52,758 nucleotides of DNA. Source: a virus. Location of the stretch: positions 1 to 52,758 of the IMG/VR virus record IMGVR_UViG_3300048918_000309, one strand, 5' to 3'. This document shows positions 7,077 through 49,819 of this stretch, in pieces. Position numbers and translations under genes: made by a program. The number at the start of each line of letters is the position of its first letter. Position 1 is the first letter of the stretch. Under the pieces are notes generated by a model that was given only the letters and a program-made list of their open reading frames with translations, searched no databases and had not been told where the DNA came from.

Positions 7077-9362
7077 TCAGACGGGCGGGCCGACGGGCGG
7101 ATCGACTTCCTTGTTGTGACTGAGGACGCCATTCGCGACGTAGGTGTGCGCGGCGGCTACGGTGAGCATCACGACAACGCCGGCCCCTGCTGGCGTGCCG
7201 ATCTGGTCGAGCGTGATCCACTCGCCATCGAGCCAGACGGGGTGGTCCGGTGAACCGCGAAGCACCTTCCCCTCGATCGTCGCCTCGAACAGGTTGGCGC
7301 ACGGCACGCGCTTGACCGCGGTGACGGGGAAGTTGCCCCAGGCCATGGTTTCCTCGTGCTGGGTCCAGACCCATTCGCCGCGCAGGATCGATCCGGCGGG
7401 CTTCGAGGTCTGGTCGGCCATCAGGATTGGCGTTTCCGGCACGACGCAATACCCGCCGCCGCCGCCGCCGCCGCCAGTCGGCGGACCACCCGAGGTTGGG
7501 GTCGTCACCGTGCCCAGATAATGCCGATAGGGGTGCGCGGTACTATTTAGCGCCTCGGATTGCTCCAGCGTAACCGCATACGGCGGAGTCTCATCGGCCA
7601 GGGTCGCGTCGTCGAAATAGGCGAAATAGGCAGTGCCGTAGTCGAGGCCGGTGATGTCCCCGCTTTCGCGATGCACGTCCGCGCCTTGGCCGGGATAGTC
7701 CCAGTCGTGCGCGGCGATCGTGACAGTCGCATCTGCACCTGCATCGATCGCACTCAGAAGGTCACCAGCGACCTTAATATACGCGCCCCGGATTGCGACA
7801 GAGGCGGCGGCCGGATCTGCGCCGGCGACATCGTCGGTCTCGTCCGGACCGGAAATCGTGATCGCCGGCGGTGCCGAGCCCGTCTGCGCCAGTGCATAAT
7901 CGTGCTTGTCGGGATTCTCGGTGACGAGGGAGAGGGAGACGGTCATCGTGGCGGGATCGATCGTGCGGTTCAAAATCACGCAATCGACCGCGTCGAGGCC
8001 AGCTTCCGGTATGTCGACAGTGACGAGGTCGCCGGGGCTATAGCCGCGCAGGCGTGGCTTGCAGACCATCTCGATCGGCCCGGCCTCCCGGCCGCCGACA
8101 AGGCCGTAGGCACCAAGCTGCGCGGCTTGAACCGGATTCGTGACCAGGTTGTATTGCCTCTCCTCCGTCTTCTCCTCTCCGTCCTCAGTAACGAACTGAG
8201 TGACCTGGATCACCTCCTGGGTCGCGACGTACTCCCACTTATGATCCGGCGAGCGGTACTTCGGGATTATCGTGTTGAGCCTGTCGCGATATGTCTGCAT
8301 CGCCGGCACGACCAAGTCGCCGTCGGCAAGGTCGTCGCGCGTTATCGTGTCCAGCGCCACGCGCGGTGCGTTGATACGGAAGCCGAGCCGGCCGTTCTTG
8401 AAGCAGGGCTCGGCAGCGCCGGCCTGAAGAATGTTCTTCAAATTCTCCCACTTGTCCCCAGGTTCGGAGAGGATGCCGTTGCAGGTCCACTCGTTGTCGT
8501 CGCAGACGTTGGCCAGCGCGACGCAGTCCACCACGTCGATCGCGTCCCACTCGAGGCCGAGACCGAATACCTTGACGTAAGCCGCATCGGCATCCGTCTC
8601 ATCGCGCTCCCAGGTGCCGAGTGCGTACCGCAGGGCGTGCAGCCCGGGATTGCGAGAATAGGTCCAGGTCGCCTTTGCTGCTGCGAAGGCAGTCGTATCG
8701 CTCGGCGACGCCCAGCGGTGGGGGCCCGAGCCGCCTGGGTAGGAGCTGTCGAGCCGAGGATCATATAGCTTGATCCCCTGCCACTCCGCACCGGTCTGGA
8801 AAAATCCGGACCCGTAGCGCTTTCCATCCTTCGGGAAGCGCGCGTTCCACAGAACGGCGGCCTTGCCCGAGAGCTTATAACTAGACCCCCAGTCCGGAGC
8901 CCCCGTCCAATGTGGCGCGAGTGCGGTAGCCTCTGGCGTTTCACCGAGCTGGTAATCGCGGTAGAGGGTGTTGTTTGAGTAGAATCCGATCGCCTTGCCC
9001 AGCCCGTCGAAGCTGATCGCGGTGAAATCACCGAAGGTTGCGACCAGCGACTGGTATGGCCCGCCAACGCCATACACATCGACCGCCAACAGATAGGCGT
9101 TCGGGACATCGTTCTCGGTCCCATATCCCGCGAGATGGACCCGTTTGCCGCCCGAGTAACTCTGCCCCAGGATCATGTCGCTGGACATGTTCGCGCCGAT
9201 CGTGATGTCCGTTTGCGACCCTTTTGCCGTTGGGCGTTTGGCGGTCAGAGCAGCGCCGATATTGGCCGCGATCGCGACGGCAGCGGCGATGGGCTGGATC
9301 GGACTGGGGACCATGGCGACGATACCAGCGATCGTGCCGACCGCCTTCAGCACGCCGCTCAA
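7077..9362 (-). CDS. Tail tip / host-specificity protein with C-terminal intein-like Hint domain
   Basis: This is the central tail-tip protein (TipJ / GTA host-specificity type), 761 residues. The N-terminus is a hydrophobic Ala-rich helix (about residues 3-40), followed by the central hub region and two or three beta-sandwich modules. A run of eight Gly leads into a Hint domain at residues 639-750: Cys639 (CVVPETPILM), a block-B-like SPDHPVW, and a C-terminal block ending LSHN. The next residue is Lys, and only 11 residues follow. The start is TTG at 9362, with GGAGG five bases upstream, overlapping the stop of the upstream gene. A GTG at 9374 is an alternative with a poorer ribosome site. 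Gene order (tape measure, two tail proteins, small DUF6950-like protein, this gene) matches gene-transfer-agent-like tail tips. Confidence 0.85.
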   Translation of the reverse strand: MSGVLKAVGTIAGIVAMVPSPIQPIAAAVAIAANIGAALTAKRPTAKGSQTDITIGANMSSDMILGQSYSGGKRVHLAGYGTENDVPNAYLLAVDVYGVGGPYQSLVATFGDFTAISFDGLGKAIGFYSNNTLYRDYQLGETPEATALAPHWTGAPDWGSSYKLSGKAAVLWNARFPKDGKRYGSGFFQTGAEWQGIKLYDPRLDSSYPGGSGPHRWASPSDTTAFAAAKATWTYSRNPGLHALRYALGTWERDETDADAAYVKVFGLGLEWDAIDVVDCVALANVCDDNEWTCNGILSEPGDKWENLKNILQAGAAEPCFKNGRLGFRINAPRVALDTITRDDLADGDLVVPAMQTYRDRLNTIIPKYRSPDHKWEYVATQEVIQVTQFVTEDGEEKTEERQYNLVTNPVQAAQLGAYGLVGGREAGPIEMVCKPRLRGYSPGDLVTVDIPEAGLDAVDCVILNRTIDPATMTVSLSLVTENPDKHDYALAQTGSAPPAITISGPDETDDVAGADPAAASVAIRGAYIKVAGDLLSAIDAGADATVTIAAHDWDYPGQGADVHRESGDITGLDYGTAYFAYFDDATLADETPPYAVTLEQSEALNSTAHPYRHYLGTVTTPTSGGPPTGGGGGGGGYCVVPETPILMADQTSKPAGSILRGEWVWTQHEETMAWGNFPVTAVKRVPCANLFEATIEGKVLRGSPDHPVWLDGEWITLDQIGTPAGAGVVVMLTVAAAHTYVANGVLSHNKEVDPPVGPPV
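7113..7448 (-). other. Hint (bacterial intein-like) domain within the tail-tip protein
   Basis: The 112-residue segment runs from Cys639 to Asn750 of the tail-tip protein. It has an N-terminal Cys after a Gly run, a block-B-like SPDHPVW with His, and a C-terminal hydrophobic strand ending in the His-Asn pair typical of inteins. The +1 residue is Lys and not Cys/Ser/Thr, so ordinary splicing is not expected. N-S acyl shift at Cys and Asn-dependent C-terminal cleavage remain possible. It is at the short end for inteins and has no homing endonuclease. Confidence 0.8.
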
Positions 9363-9793
9363 ATCAGCCTCCACGCAGCGAGCGGCGGCAGCGCGGGCTT
9401 GATGTTGACCAGGCCGAGCCGCCCGTCGTCGTGCCAACCCAGCAGCATGCCGTTGCCGGCATTCAGCAGCACCGCCTCGAAGGGAGCTCCCGGCAGAAGC
9501 GCTACGTCGCCGACGCGCATCTGAGCTGCAGGTATGGGCTCGCCGATCATCATTGTCAGCAGCCCCTTGATGGTCCGGTGACCGGTTGACCGCAGCGCCC
9601 GTCGGGCACCCTTGGCGTCGTCGAATTCCGGGATCTCCGGTGGCTGGTATCCGAAGGCCAGCATCTGCTCGCGCAGCATGTGGAGGCAGGTCACCTGGTC
9701 ACGGTAGCTCAGGGCTCGCCCGCGAAACTTCGCGGCCGTGCCATGCGTCGCGCGCGCACGTTCCGGAGGTGTCAGTGGCGCGATGCTAGACAT
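9359..9793 (-). CDS. DUF6950-like tail-tip assembly protein
   Basis: The 144-residue protein starts at the ATG at 9793 and overlaps the upstream gene by eight bases. A Cys lies in a helical context near residue 36 (RDQVTCLHMLREQM), and the C-terminal half (VGDVALLPG, MLLGWHDDGRLGLV) has a small beta-barrel look, like proteins that occupy the NlpC/P60 slot in GTA-like tail-tip cassettes. I identify it as DUF6950-like from memory of the family. A second catalytic residue is not obvious, so hydrolase activity is uncertain. It may help assemble the tail tip or process peptidoglycan during entry. Confidence 0.65.
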   Translation of the reverse strand: MSSIAPLTPPERARATHGTAAKFRGRALSYRDQVTCLHMLREQMLAFGYQPPEIPEFDDAKGARRALRSTGHRTIKGLLTMMIGEPIPAAQMRVGDVALLPGAPFEAVLLNAGNGMLLGWHDDGRLGLVNIKPALPPLAAWRLI

Positions 9794-21514: not shown

Positions 21515-23440
21515 TTACCAGGTGACGGACTGCGTCCAGGCGACGGTACCGGAGCGGCGAAGCGCCCAGTTCATGTCGAGGATCATCCGCAGCGCCAGAG
21601 TGTCGGTCTGGAACAGCGAGCGGACCGGAGCGGCCACCACGTTCGGGGTACCGGTCGTGCCGATCGCCAGCGGCGTCGTATCTTCCATGTGGAGGGTGGC
21701 CTGATCCGACATGTCGAAGCGCGGATCGTCGCCGGTGGCGCTGAAGAAGTCCGCCGCGTCGACGAGGAACACCATGCCGGCAGTGACCGTGGTCGACTGC
21801 AGGATCGGATACCCCAGCAGGTTGCCCTCGGCGATCTCGGCCTTGAACGGAAATTCGCCGCCGGCATTCTGGGTGACGCTCGCCGAAAGCACCTGGATCG
21901 GGTTCATGATCCAGACAGGCTGGCGGAGACGACCGTTGCTGCTGGCAATCAGAGCCGCGATCAGCCCCTTGAGATCGCCGACCAATGCAGCGAAGCCGCC
22001 CCCGGACGTTGCCGTCGTCACCGTGACGCCGTTGCGAAGACCCGCAGGCCGCACCGTCGATGCTGCGGTCGCATCGAGTAGCACCGTATCGATGGAAACG
22101 GCAGTGTCCTCCTGGATCGCCTCGCGCAGCACCGCCTCGATCGACGGGGTCGAATGCTCGGCGATCTCGCGCGTGAACGTCGAGATGACCGCCATCTTCT
22201 TCGGCGTGAGCGAAGTCGACGTGAAGGCGCCCTGGCGAACCGGGATCGGCGCGCCCTGACCGACGAACGAGCCGCCGACGCTGTTGCCGAGGTTGCGCGC
22301 CGGAAGACTGACGACGCCATTGCGGCCGAACGTGAAGCGACCACCTCGGGCGCTCAGCCCGGGATAGACGGAGAACGGGAGCAGGGACTCGATGAAGTCG
22401 AGGATCGCCGTCTGCACCAGCTCGGCCGCCCAGCCGGTCGTGGTGGTCGTCGCCGGCGCGGAGGCAGCGCGGGTGACGACATCGAACACAGCGCGGGTCA
22501 TCGGGTCCTCGCCGTAACGCTCGACCAGGATCTCGGCCTGATTGCGCTTGGTGACGTGCGCAAGCGCGGTGACGACGGCCGCGCGGAGGATATAGTCCTT
22601 CGGCGCGACCTTCTTCGCCGCGGGAGCAGCGAACGGGCGCCGCGGATCCTGCTGGCCCGCAGGCTGATCGATGATCACCCCGGGAGCGGTCTTGACGGCG
22701 AGGGCCTGCTCGGCGCGCTGGAGCGCACCGAGGACCGTCTTGCTCTGCTCGACGATGCGGCTGAGCTCCTCGGTAACGATGACGTCGGCATCGTCCTGCG
22801 AAATGTGGTTGTTGAGGTCGTCGGTCGCCTTGGTGAGCGCCGCCTGTGCGGCCTCGATACGCTGTGCGAGCGTCATCGTCTTTGTCCTTGATGGGGGTGG
22901 GGAAGCGGCGTGCTCGCCGTTGGCTCCACGCTGCACGACCTCGATCCCATCGGCAGGCTCGCCAAAGATCGTCCGTTTTGCATCGTCGGAAAGGTTGAGG
23001 GCTTTCGCCATCTGAAGCGCGTTCGGGTTCGCTGGGATGCTCACCAAGGAGCATTCGACCAGCTCAGACGCCTTGAAGCGTACGCCGCGGCCATTCTTCA
23101 TGGGCTCGGCATCGATCGGGCGGAAACCTACCGAGACCGCGCGCAGCACACCGTGCTCGACTGCGGCGCGGATCTCGTCCAGGCGCTCGGAGATGCCAGC
23201 CGGCAACAGCTTGAGCGTGCCGATCAGTTTGCCGGCGATCACCTTCACGTCCGTCCAGTGGCCGACGATGAACTTGGAATCGTGGCCGAACAGGGCGATC
23301 GGGTTCTTCTTGAAATTCGCGAGAGCCCAGCCGGCTGCCTCGACGACATCGCCATATCGATCGACGGATTCGTCGCTCATCACATAGACAAGCGGGTCCG
23401 CGTCCGCCGGAGCGGCGACTGATTTTACGATTACCGTCAT
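21515..23440 (-). CDS. Prohead protease-scaffold-major capsid fusion protein
   Basis: One 641-residue frame encodes three functions that are often separate. Residues 1-165 are an S78 (HK97 gp4-like) prohead protease with His53 (ALFGHDSK) and Ser103 (LRAVSVGF). Residues 185-275 are helical and charged, like a delta/scaffold domain (MTLAQRIEAAQAALTKATDD). From about 290 to the end comes an HK97-fold capsid protein (FTREIAEHSTPSIEAVLREAI; PVWIMNPIQVLSAS; FPFKAEIAEGNLLGYPI). The protease should cut itself and the scaffold away after assembly. No stop or frameshift interrupts the fusion. It follows the large terminase gene by nine bases. Confidence 0.9.
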   Translation of the reverse strand: MTVIVKSVAAPADADPLVYVMSDESVDRYGDVVEAAGWALANFKKNPIALFGHDSKFIVGHWTDVKVIAGKLIGTLKLLPAGISERLDEIRAAVEHGVLRAVSVGFRPIDAEPMKNGRGVRFKASELVECSLVSIPANPNALQMAKALNLSDDAKRTIFGEPADGIEVVQRGANGEHAASPPPSRTKTMTLAQRIEAAQAALTKATDDLNNHISQDDADVIVTEELSRIVEQSKTVLGALQRAEQALAVKTAPGVIIDQPAGQQDPRRPFAAPAAKKVAPKDYILRAAVVTALAHVTKRNQAEILVERYGEDPMTRAVFDVVTRAASAPATTTTTGWAAELVQTAILDFIESLLPFSVYPGLSARGGRFTFGRNGVVSLPARNLGNSVGGSFVGQGAPIPVRQGAFTSTSLTPKKMAVISTFTREIAEHSTPSIEAVLREAIQEDTAVSIDTVLLDATAASTVRPAGLRNGVTVTTATSGGGFAALVGDLKGLIAALIASSNGRLRQPVWIMNPIQVLSASVTQNAGGEFPFKAEIAEGNLLGYPILQSTTVTAGMVFLVDAADFFSATGDDPRFDMSDQATLHMEDTTPLAIGTTGTPNVVAAPVRSLFQTDTLALRMILDMNWALRRSGTVAWTQSVTW

Positions 23441-44680: not shown

Positions 44681-45259
44681 GTGCTGAACGATGCGATTGT
44701 CGAGAATGCAGAACCGCTGGAGCGCCCGTATAAGCTGGCCGATCAGCGGTGCCTCTACCTCTATGTTTCGAGGTCGGGGTCCAAATCATTCCGTCTTAAG
44801 TATCGTTTCAAGAGGCGCGAAAAACTCCTTACGCTCGGTCGCTGGCCGTTGATCTCGCTGGCCGAGGCGCGTCGGCGTGCTGACGTGGCGCGCGCAAATC
44901 TGGCAGACGGTATTGAGCCGGAGCGCTGGCGCCTCGCCGCGCCAGTTCGCGAGAGAGTCGCGCTACGCGACCTCCCCGTACCTACGACCGGGTCGAGGTT
45001 TGTCTATTTCATCCAGGCCAGCAGCGGCCACATCAAGATCGGCGTTACATCGTGCGTCGAACATCGAAGGCGCGCGCTGCAGACAGCCCATCCAGAGGAG
45101 CTCGTGCTCCTGGCTTGTGCCCCGGGAGGTCATGCCCACGAGACGGAATTGCACCACATGTTCGCGGACTATCGCGACCATGGAGAATGGTTCTCACCCA
45201 CACCCGCGCTGCTCGGCATGATTGAAGCGGTTCGCGCGTCTGGGGGCTGGGAATGCTGA
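44681..45259 (+). CDS. Integrase arm-binding domain (DUF4102) fused to GIY-YIG nuclease domain
   Basis: 192 residues from a GTG with GAGGAG eight bases upstream. Residues 10-80 are a DUF4102 arm-binding domain clearly related to the N-terminus of the integrase encoded next (RPYKLADQRCLYLYVSRSGS; RREKLLTLGRWPLISLAEAR). There is no catalytic recombinase domain. Residues 107-184 are a GIY-YIG domain of the MUG113 type: VYFIQASSGHIKIGV, the following Arg run (RRR, 129-131), Glu154/156 and GEWF (168-171). The gene overlaps the integrase ATG by seven bases. It may cut or nick at sites the integrase binds, or compete with it. I know of no described protein with this role. Confidence 0.85.
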   Translation: MLNDAIVENAEPLERPYKLADQRCLYLYVSRSGSKSFRLKYRFKRREKLLTLGRWPLISLAEARRRADVARANLADGIEPERWRLAAPVRERVALRDLPVPTTGSRFVYFIQASSGHIKIGVTSCVEHRRRALQTAHPEELVLLACAPGGHAHETELHHMFADYRDHGEWFSPTPALLGMIEAVRASGGWEC

Positions 45260-46546: not shown

Positions 46547-47380
46547 ATGAGCGAAAACGTGAGCAGACGGCCGGAGAGTTTTCCAGTATCGGCCGAGCTT
46601 GAGCGGGCGATCGATGTCGCCACCTCACGCGCTTCGCCCATGCGCGGCATCGCCAAGGTTGTTGTCGGCAGCGCTGCCGGCCACCGAGTGATGACGGCGA
46701 AAGGAGAGGTCTCGCCGTCGTACGGCGAGGTTTTCGCAAGCCCGGCCGCTAGTGAGGCGATGCTCGATGACGCTGCCTTCGACGCTGAAAAGTGGCTGGC
46801 TGATGAAATCGGCTCGGAATTCGGGTGCGTCGAGAGCGAAGCGTTTGTCGTTGGCAATGGGGTCAACAAGCCGAAAGGCTTCCTCGCCGCTCCGGTCTCT
46901 CGCGAAGCGGACGCGACCCGTGCGGGTGGTACCCTGCAATACCTGCCCAGCGGCCGCGACGGTGACTTCGACGGCATCCCAGAAGATCGTTTGATCGATT
47001 TGACCCAAGCTCTGCAGGCGGAATACCGTCGCCGAGCATGCTGGGTAATGAATTCGATGACCCTCGCGAGAATCCGCAGGATCAAGACCGAGGAAGGCGC
47101 ACCCCTCTGGGCTCCGAGCTTGGCTGGCGGTCAACCCAGTATACTGCTTGGTTATCCCGTGATCGAGGTCACAGATATGCCGGACATAGCGGCCAACTCG
47201 CTTGCGATCGCCTTCGGGGATTTCGGGTCGGGTTACCTGATCGCAGAGCGGGGGCCGACCCAGATCGTTCGCGATCCCTTTACAAAGAAGCCCTTTGTTC
47301 TCTTCTACGCGACAAAGCGGATCGGCGGCGCCGTATCCGACTGGAATGCGCTCAAGCTGATGCGCTTCAGCAAGAACTGA
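46547..47380 (+). CDS. Orphan HK97-fold major capsid protein, shortened
   Basis: 277 residues with a strong AAGGAG site eight bases upstream. The C-terminal two thirds are unmistakably HK97-fold capsid: VFASPAASEAMLDDAAFDAE, WLADEIGSEFG, VVGNGVNKPKGFLAAP (102-116), WVMNSMTLARIRRIK, LLGYPVIEVTDMPD and a final RIGGAVSDWNALKLMRFS. It lacks the delta/scaffold domain, protease and N-arm, and the stretch corresponding to the E-loop seems short. It lies after the integrase, on the strand opposite the virion genes, and is not closely similar to the capsid at 21515. It could be a decoy or interference protein, a size-altering capsid variant, or a relic of a satellite. Confidence 0.85.
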   Translation: MSENVSRRPESFPVSAELERAIDVATSRASPMRGIAKVVVGSAAGHRVMTAKGEVSPSYGEVFASPAASEAMLDDAAFDAEKWLADEIGSEFGCVESEAFVVGNGVNKPKGFLAAPVSREADATRAGGTLQYLPSGRDGDFDGIPEDRLIDLTQALQAEYRRRACWVMNSMTLARIRRIKTEEGAPLWAPSLAGGQPSILLGYPVIEVTDMPDIAANSLAIAFGDFGSGYLIAERGPTQIVRDPFTKKPFVLFYATKRIGGAVSDWNALKLMRFSKN

Positions 47381-48739: not shown

Positions 48740-48785
48740 TCGCTGCGGACTCGACATCGGTCCTTTTCCGAACGATCTAAGTGGC

Positions 48786-49157
48786 ATGGCAAAGGCACCC
48801 AACCCCAATCTCACCGTAGCTCCGGAACAGAAGCTCCGGCTCGTCTCGATGATGATCGGCCCGCTCTCCGATTCGCTGGCGCAGTTTTCGACCGAAGCCG
48901 CGCTGACCGCGGACGACTTCATCGACACGCTTTCGATGGCGCTCGGCATGCTCCTGGCGAACGACACGAATCTCAAGACGCCGCGCGACGTGCGCGAAGG
49001 TGCCGCGGTGATCGCGAAATATATCGAGCGGCACGCCGACACGTTCCGGAAGGCGCAAGAGGTCGTGGGCGGCGAGAGCGCGTTCATGAAGATCCTGAAC
49101 GCCTATCGAGCCAACCCGGACGAGCCGCCGGAGATCGTCTTCCCGACGGTCAACTGA
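48786..49157 (+). CDS. Hypothetical helical protein
   Basis: 123 residues (EQKLRLVSMMIGPLSDSLAQ; DTLSMALGMLLANDTNLKTPRDVREGAAVIAKYIERHADTFR). All-helical, no motif. It is the gene before the SRAP gene and may be transcribed with it; the 11-base gap between them holds the SRAP ribosome site. Confidence 0.58.
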   Translation: MAKAPNPNLTVAPEQKLRLVSMMIGPLSDSLAQFSTEAALTADDFIDTLSMALGMLLANDTNLKTPRDVREGAAVIAKYIERHADTFRKAQEVVGGESAFMKILNAYRANPDEPPEIVFPTVN

Positions 49158-49168
49158 GGGAGGGGACT

Positions 49169-49819
49169 ATCTGCAATCGAGCTCGCAACAAGGCTGCGCC
49201 TGAGCCGCCGACGCTGGTGACGCACTTCGGCACCGACTGGCTGGCCGACAAGCCGATGGACAATCGGTTCAATCCGAAAGAGCTGACGCCGAAGACGCGG
49301 GCCTACGTGGTGCGGGAAAGCGATCGGGGCAGGGGGCTCGATGTCATGAACTGGGACGTGCTGGGCGGCCAGGCGAAATGGCCCATGACGAATGTCCGGC
49401 AGCTTGGTCTGCCGCAGTGGCGCAGGCTCGCCGCCAATCCTGAAAACCGCTGTCTCATCCCGCTCACCGAGTTCTGCGAGTGGACACCAGAGCCGGTCGA
49501 CCTGATGGACGGCAAGAAGCCCGTGAAAGGCGAGATGTGGTTCGAGGTCGTCGACCAACCGCTGTTTGCAGTCGCAGGCTTCTGGCAGGCGACGGCGGCC
49601 GGCAACGGTTTCACGATGGTCACCTGCGATCCGAACGAGCTCGTCGCGCCGATCCACCCGAAGGCGATGATCACGATCCTGGAGCCGACCGATTGGGACA
49701 CCTGGCTGCGCGGCAGCTATGACGATGTCGTCGCGCTCCAGCGGCCCTATCCAGGCGATCGCATGACAGTGCGCGGACCCGAATTCCCGACCCGCCAGCC
49801 GGCCTCCAAGCCGCTCTGA
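49169..49819 (+). CDS. SRAP (YedK/HMCES-like) protein, start codon apparently ATC
   Basis: 216 residues if translation begins at the ATC at 49169, with a GAGG/GGGAGG site about five bases upstream. That start gives Met-Cys-Asn-Arg, the invariant SRAP N-terminus whose Cys2 crosslinks abasic sites. The other active-site positions are present: Asn in DNRFNPKEL, Glu in LTEFCEW and His in PIHPKAMITIL. The first standard start, GTG at 49217, would remove Cys2. SRAP proteins shield abasic sites in single-stranded DNA. Two genes with LexA-type boxes follow, so this is a DNA-damage-linked neighbourhood. Most pipelines would call 49217-49819. Confidence 0.8.
   Translation: MCNRARNKAAPEPPTLVTHFGTDWLADKPMDNRFNPKELTPKTRAYVVRESDRGRGLDVMNWDVLGGQAKWPMTNVRQLGLPQWRRLAANPENRCLIPLTEFCEWTPEPVDLMDGKKPVKGEMWFEVVDQPLFAVAGFWQATAAGNGFTMVTCDPNELVAPIHPKAMITILEPTDWDTWLRGSYDDVVALQRPYPGDRMTVRGPEFPTRQPASKPL

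Follow-up and report, generated by a model that had tools for sequence, protein, structure and literature searches.

A viral SRAP gene probably translated from an AUC start codon

The window analysed here, the whole 52,758 bases of a virus record, carries a gene of the SRAP (YedK/HMCES) family that most likely encodes a functional protein translated from AUC 49169 by fMet-tRNA, with the support of a strong Shine-Dalgarno site. This rare start is probably real, since a separately evolved phage copy appears to do the same and since infC of the presumed host clade appears to start at AUC or AUA. The protein itself is an ordinary family member; the AUC start, arisen twice independently, is the interesting part. 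In YedK, the reaction begins at the amine of Cys2 and the thiazolidine ring is completed by the thiol of this residue, while Glu105 and His160 provide acid-base catalysis (PMC9436759). Given this chemistry, the position of the translation start decides whether the enzyme can work.

Results

The SRAP locus comprises the following features.

48786..49157, + strand: upstream gene, 123 aa, in a different frame from SRAP; its TGA ends 11 nt before the ATC
49158..49165, + strand: Shine-Dalgarno site GGGAGGGG; second strongest of 107 by duplex energy (-12.7 kcal/mol)
49169..49819, + strand: SRAP coding sequence read from the ATC, 216 codons including the start, then TGA; Pfam match and fold match to YedK/HMCES
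49169..49171, + strand: putative ATC start codon; ATG at the homologous position in 102 relatives, ATC also in L015
49172..49174, + strand: TGC, putative catalytic cysteine (Cys2 if the start Met is counted); invariant in 31 aligned relatives and supported by structural alignment
49217..49219, + strand: GTG, first conventional start in the reading frame; its product would be without Cys2
49391..49393, + strand: Asn, counterpart of YedK Asn75; invariant, matched to YedK by motif
49478..49480, + strand: Glu, counterpart of YedK Glu105; invariant, aligns with the Glu of 2aeg
49655..49657, + strand: His, counterpart of YedK His160; invariant, aligns with the His of 2aeg

The frame upstream of GTG 49217 had been described as open, and indeed it is open back to 48740, with no ATG, GTG or TTG among the 143 open codons (48740-49168) that precede the ATC. 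Near-cognate codons in this segment are CTG 48743, AAG 48779, AGG 48998, ATA 49019, CTG 49154 and AGG 49157; among the near-cognates of the SRAP frame from 48740 on, only ATC 49169 lies at Shine-Dalgarno distance. The predicted GGGAGG-type site is found as GGGAGGGG, directly 3' of the stop of the upstream gene, its GGAGG ending 5 nt before the ATC. The latter is followed by TGC AAT CGA GCT CGC (C-N-R-A-R), and the TGA closing the frame ends at 49819. The window thus combines the start position, the Shine-Dalgarno spacing and the lack of a conventional upstream start expected of a near-cognate AUH start, which recurs in one independent related copy, phage contig L015. GTG 49217 corresponds to mature residue 16, and initiation there would drop 15 residues, among them the five invariant ones with the Cys2 nucleophile, whose loss had been anticipated. 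The original prediction that the cysteine requires the ATC stands in so far as this is the only Shine-Dalgarno-reachable start that places Cys at position 2. The word "requires" is slightly too strong, because SRAP proteins reportedly remove N-terminal extensions themselves (PMC3765255), so that an upstream start could in principle expose Cys2.

In many relatives, the upstream gene runs directly up to or into the start of SRAP, 19 of them showing a one-base overlap of stop and start (e.g. TGATG), and in L024 the upstream neighbour is related to the 123-aa protein of the window. No tRNA gene was found in the whole window, and hence no phage tRNA that would read AUC as a start.

The window also holds two HK97-type capsid genes (46547-47380 and 21515-23440). 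One of them is a protease-capsid fusion of about 640 aa in the structural block; the second capsid-like ORF, of 277 aa, lies beside the integrase, in the part of the window that also holds SRAP, and is perhaps an interfering or exchanged capsid copy. A tail fibre J-like protein (7077-9437, - strand) has a C-terminus that resembles a Hint (intein-type) domain (CVVPETPILM ... HTYVANGVLSHNK). The ORF at 44681-45259, immediately upstream of the complete integrase, fuses an integrase arm-type DNA-binding domain to a domain beginning FVYFIQASSGHIKIGVT and resembling T5orf172/GIY-YIG.

The protein matches Pfam SRAP (PF02586) with 67.6 bits against a cut-off of 27.1 (E 1.5e-18). Across 31 aligned relatives, C1, N2, R3, A4, R5, N74, E103 and H162 (mature numbering) are invariant, which agrees with the earlier reading of ATC-TGC-AAT-CGA as a SRAP start and of the active-site Asn, Glu and His as intact; the Glu and His also align to 2aeg. 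An AlphaFold2 model (pLDDT 85) matched known SRAP structures over the full length (2aeg, Z 22.3; 2f20, Z 21.5; HMCES, Z 19.1; YedK, Z 18.5), and its residue 1 aligned with chain residue 2 (Cys2) of YedK, HMCES and 2aeg (Z range 17.8-22.3). Only with initiation at the ATC does a Cys directly follow the start residue. With E. coli YedK and human HMCES the protein shares the full-length fold, the N-terminal Cys and counterparts of Asn75, Glu105 and His160; it differs from them in its N-terminus (CNRAR instead of the usual CGR[F/Y]), in the EFCEW around its Glu and in its putative AUC start, where they have AUG.

We collected 108 SRAP relatives from viral and genome contigs, and the start codon was readable in 107. 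The comparison of homologues proposed in the original prediction places the gene start at the same position: the codon before TGY is ATG in 102, TTG in three, GTG in one and ATC in one, so that the ATC start is limited to 2 of about 108 relatives. The sole ATC relative is L015, whose protein is 69% identical to that of the window. No ATG, GTG or TTG was found upstream of its ATC in frame, and initiation at the first conventional start downstream, ATG 5160, would cost it 54 N-terminal residues, start counted. L015 shares a starred branch of the tree with L014 (TTG) and L020 (ATG), and the window lies elsewhere, a placement that forces two origins of the ATC. The invariance of the N-terminal and active-site residues in 31 relatives and the second ATC copy argue against a chance match in the window.

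Several observations concern the relatives themselves. Two look damaged, namely L021 (170-727), which is without the N-terminal CNRAR segment, and L065 (5001), whose frame is broken after 74 codons. The SRAP genes of L086 and L102, titled Microvirga sp. SRT01, nest inside Sphingomonas sequences in the tree, and the label may be wrong. This SRAP subfamily is present more than once in several Sphingomonas genomes; L031 and L032 lie on one contig, about 11 kb apart.

Shine-Dalgarno strength was calculated from the pairing of the 16S tail with the 21 bases preceding each start and expressed as duplex energy. Over the 107 genes the median was -5.0 kcal/mol, with the window at -12.7 (rank 2) and L015 at -10.3 (rank 5); the relatives starting with TTG or GTG ranked 44 to 100. 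The probability that the top five include both ATC genes by chance is 10/5671, about 0.002, a value for two cases only and from a test made after the ATC genes were known. The strong sites of both genes fit a compensation for a weak start codon.

Coding constraint before the conventional start was assessed with the three closest relatives that are gap-free there (L024, L030 and L002). Over codons 1-16, 13-15 of the 16 amino acids of the window are conserved, and changes per site amount to 0.49-0.78 (synonymous) and 0.06-0.14 (nonsynonymous), like the remainder of the gene; for codons 1-53 of L015 the values are 0.53-0.83 and 0.30-0.40, again with synonymous change in excess, all these pairs including branches on which the start was ATG. 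The ATC change sits on a terminal branch, where the changes private to the window in the first 16 codons number three (two synonymous, one nonsynonymous), too few to show selection since that change. With these limits, the constraint data make a recent lesion unlikely but still conceivable.

Searches for further ATC-type starts returned no additional real case with a strong Shine-Dalgarno site, either in the viral contigs or in 397 Sphingomonadaceae genomes. In all viral contigs, ATH with GGAGG before CNRAR gave only L015 and two chance matches, and before CGR[F/Y] seven matches, none of them a SRAP. The corresponding DTG control scans recovered one SRAP gene (CNRAR) and six (CGR[F/Y]), which indicates a small denominator of strong-Shine-Dalgarno SRAP genes in viruses. 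In the 397 genomes, GGAG with ATH and CNRAR gave two matches, both by chance.

From the SRAP relatives of the phage, we infer that the host is a sphingomonad. In 33 of 34 sphingomonad genomes (L133-L166), the putative infC start, at a constant 8 nt from GGAG, is AUA (26) or AUC (7, including L155, assigned by this spacing), and a conserved RPP/PPM-like motif follows (33/34); AUG never occupies this position. Given this start context, AUC is very probably used for initiation by ribosomes of the host clade. That AUA should prevail as the IF3 start of a bacterial family looks unusual in itself.

Discussion

Our results favor initiation at AUC 49169, and the other explanations have to be weighed against it. 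A recent ATG to ATC lesion, leaving a gene on its way to a pseudogene with little or no active SRAP, is improbable. The near relatives all have ATG, the change maps to a terminal branch that carries few private changes, and the frame of L065 is broken at 74 aa; against this, the window frame is intact to its end, as is that of L015, a separate lineage with the same codon, and lesions would not be expected to coincide with top-ranked Shine-Dalgarno sites in both genes. The same independent phage lineage, with its ATC and comparably strong site, makes both a random lesion and a sequencing error unlikely. Indeed, an assembly or sequencing error masking a true ATG has very little to be said for it: the window is a single contig, but a second contig from another record has ATC in another gene lineage, and no other near relative has a non-start codon at this position.

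Translation might instead enter from upstream, at a non-standard start such as CTG 49154 or by frameshifting from the upstream gene, with self-cleavage of SRAP then exposing Cys2. The reported removal of N-terminal extensions (PMC3765255) and the open codons before the ATC, CTG 49154 among them, allow for this route, which we nevertheless consider quite improbable, as neither ATC gene has an ATG, GTG or TTG upstream, CTG 49154 is placed 5' of the Shine-Dalgarno site, no in-phase -1 slippery heptamer occurs in the overlap with the upstream gene, and the two lineages would need different frameshifts. Use of GTG 49217, giving a shorter SRAP without Cys2 and perhaps a DNA-binding form, is very improbable. 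It is the first conventional start, and L021 is likewise without the CNRAR segment; however, the residues lost would be the most conserved of the family and under amino-acid constraint, and the corresponding choice in L015 would cost 54 residues.

With initiation at AUC 49169, initiator fMet-tRNA would read AUC as a near-cognate start with a third-position mismatch, while the unusually strong Shine-Dalgarno site 5 nt upstream would hold the initiation complex in place. Ribosomes terminating on the upstream gene, 11 nt before the AUC, possibly help. Deformylation and Met removal would then expose Cys2, whose amine and thiol are predicted to capture abasic sites of single-stranded DNA in a thiazolidine linkage.

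One close precedent is infC. The E. coli gene, encoding IF3, starts at AUU and is autoregulated via this codon according to Butler et al. 1987, as cited in PMC9845219. Like the AUU of E. coli and the AUA/AUC of sphingomonads, the start of the window gene is an AUH codon with a good Shine-Dalgarno site and would be read by initiator tRNA; in infC, by contrast, the codon serves autogenous control by the gene's own product, whereas SRAP is an unrelated phage gene. Outside infC, pcnB of E. coli has an AUU start that keeps expression low. It resembles the window SRAP as a non-infC gene with a near-cognate AUH start and differs in codon, in being chromosomal and in encoding an unrelated protein. In an E. 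coli reporter study, AUC was reportedly a poor start codon. IF3 of the host clade very probably discriminates against AUC, and as a weak start AUC probably limits SRAP to low levels and makes it IF3-responsive, as for infC. The expected low yield may even suit a protein that attaches covalently to DNA. It is a speculative and rather doubtful extension that sphingomonad phages repeatedly moved SRAP under an IF3-sensitive AUC with a compensating Shine-Dalgarno site, so that the crosslinker would be produced chiefly under reduced initiation fidelity, via the infC control of the host.

Because the reactive Cys of SRAP proteins comes immediately after the start Met, sequence alone identifies their start codon unambiguously, and SRAP is a natural ruler for unusual starts. 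With a recurrent AUC start outside infC and host-clade infC at AUC or AUA, gene callers limited to ATG, GTG and TTG would mis-start such genes; here, conventional calling would leave the active residue out of the annotated enzyme. The SRAP locus also provides a setting outside E. coli in which AUC initiation can be cleanly tested.
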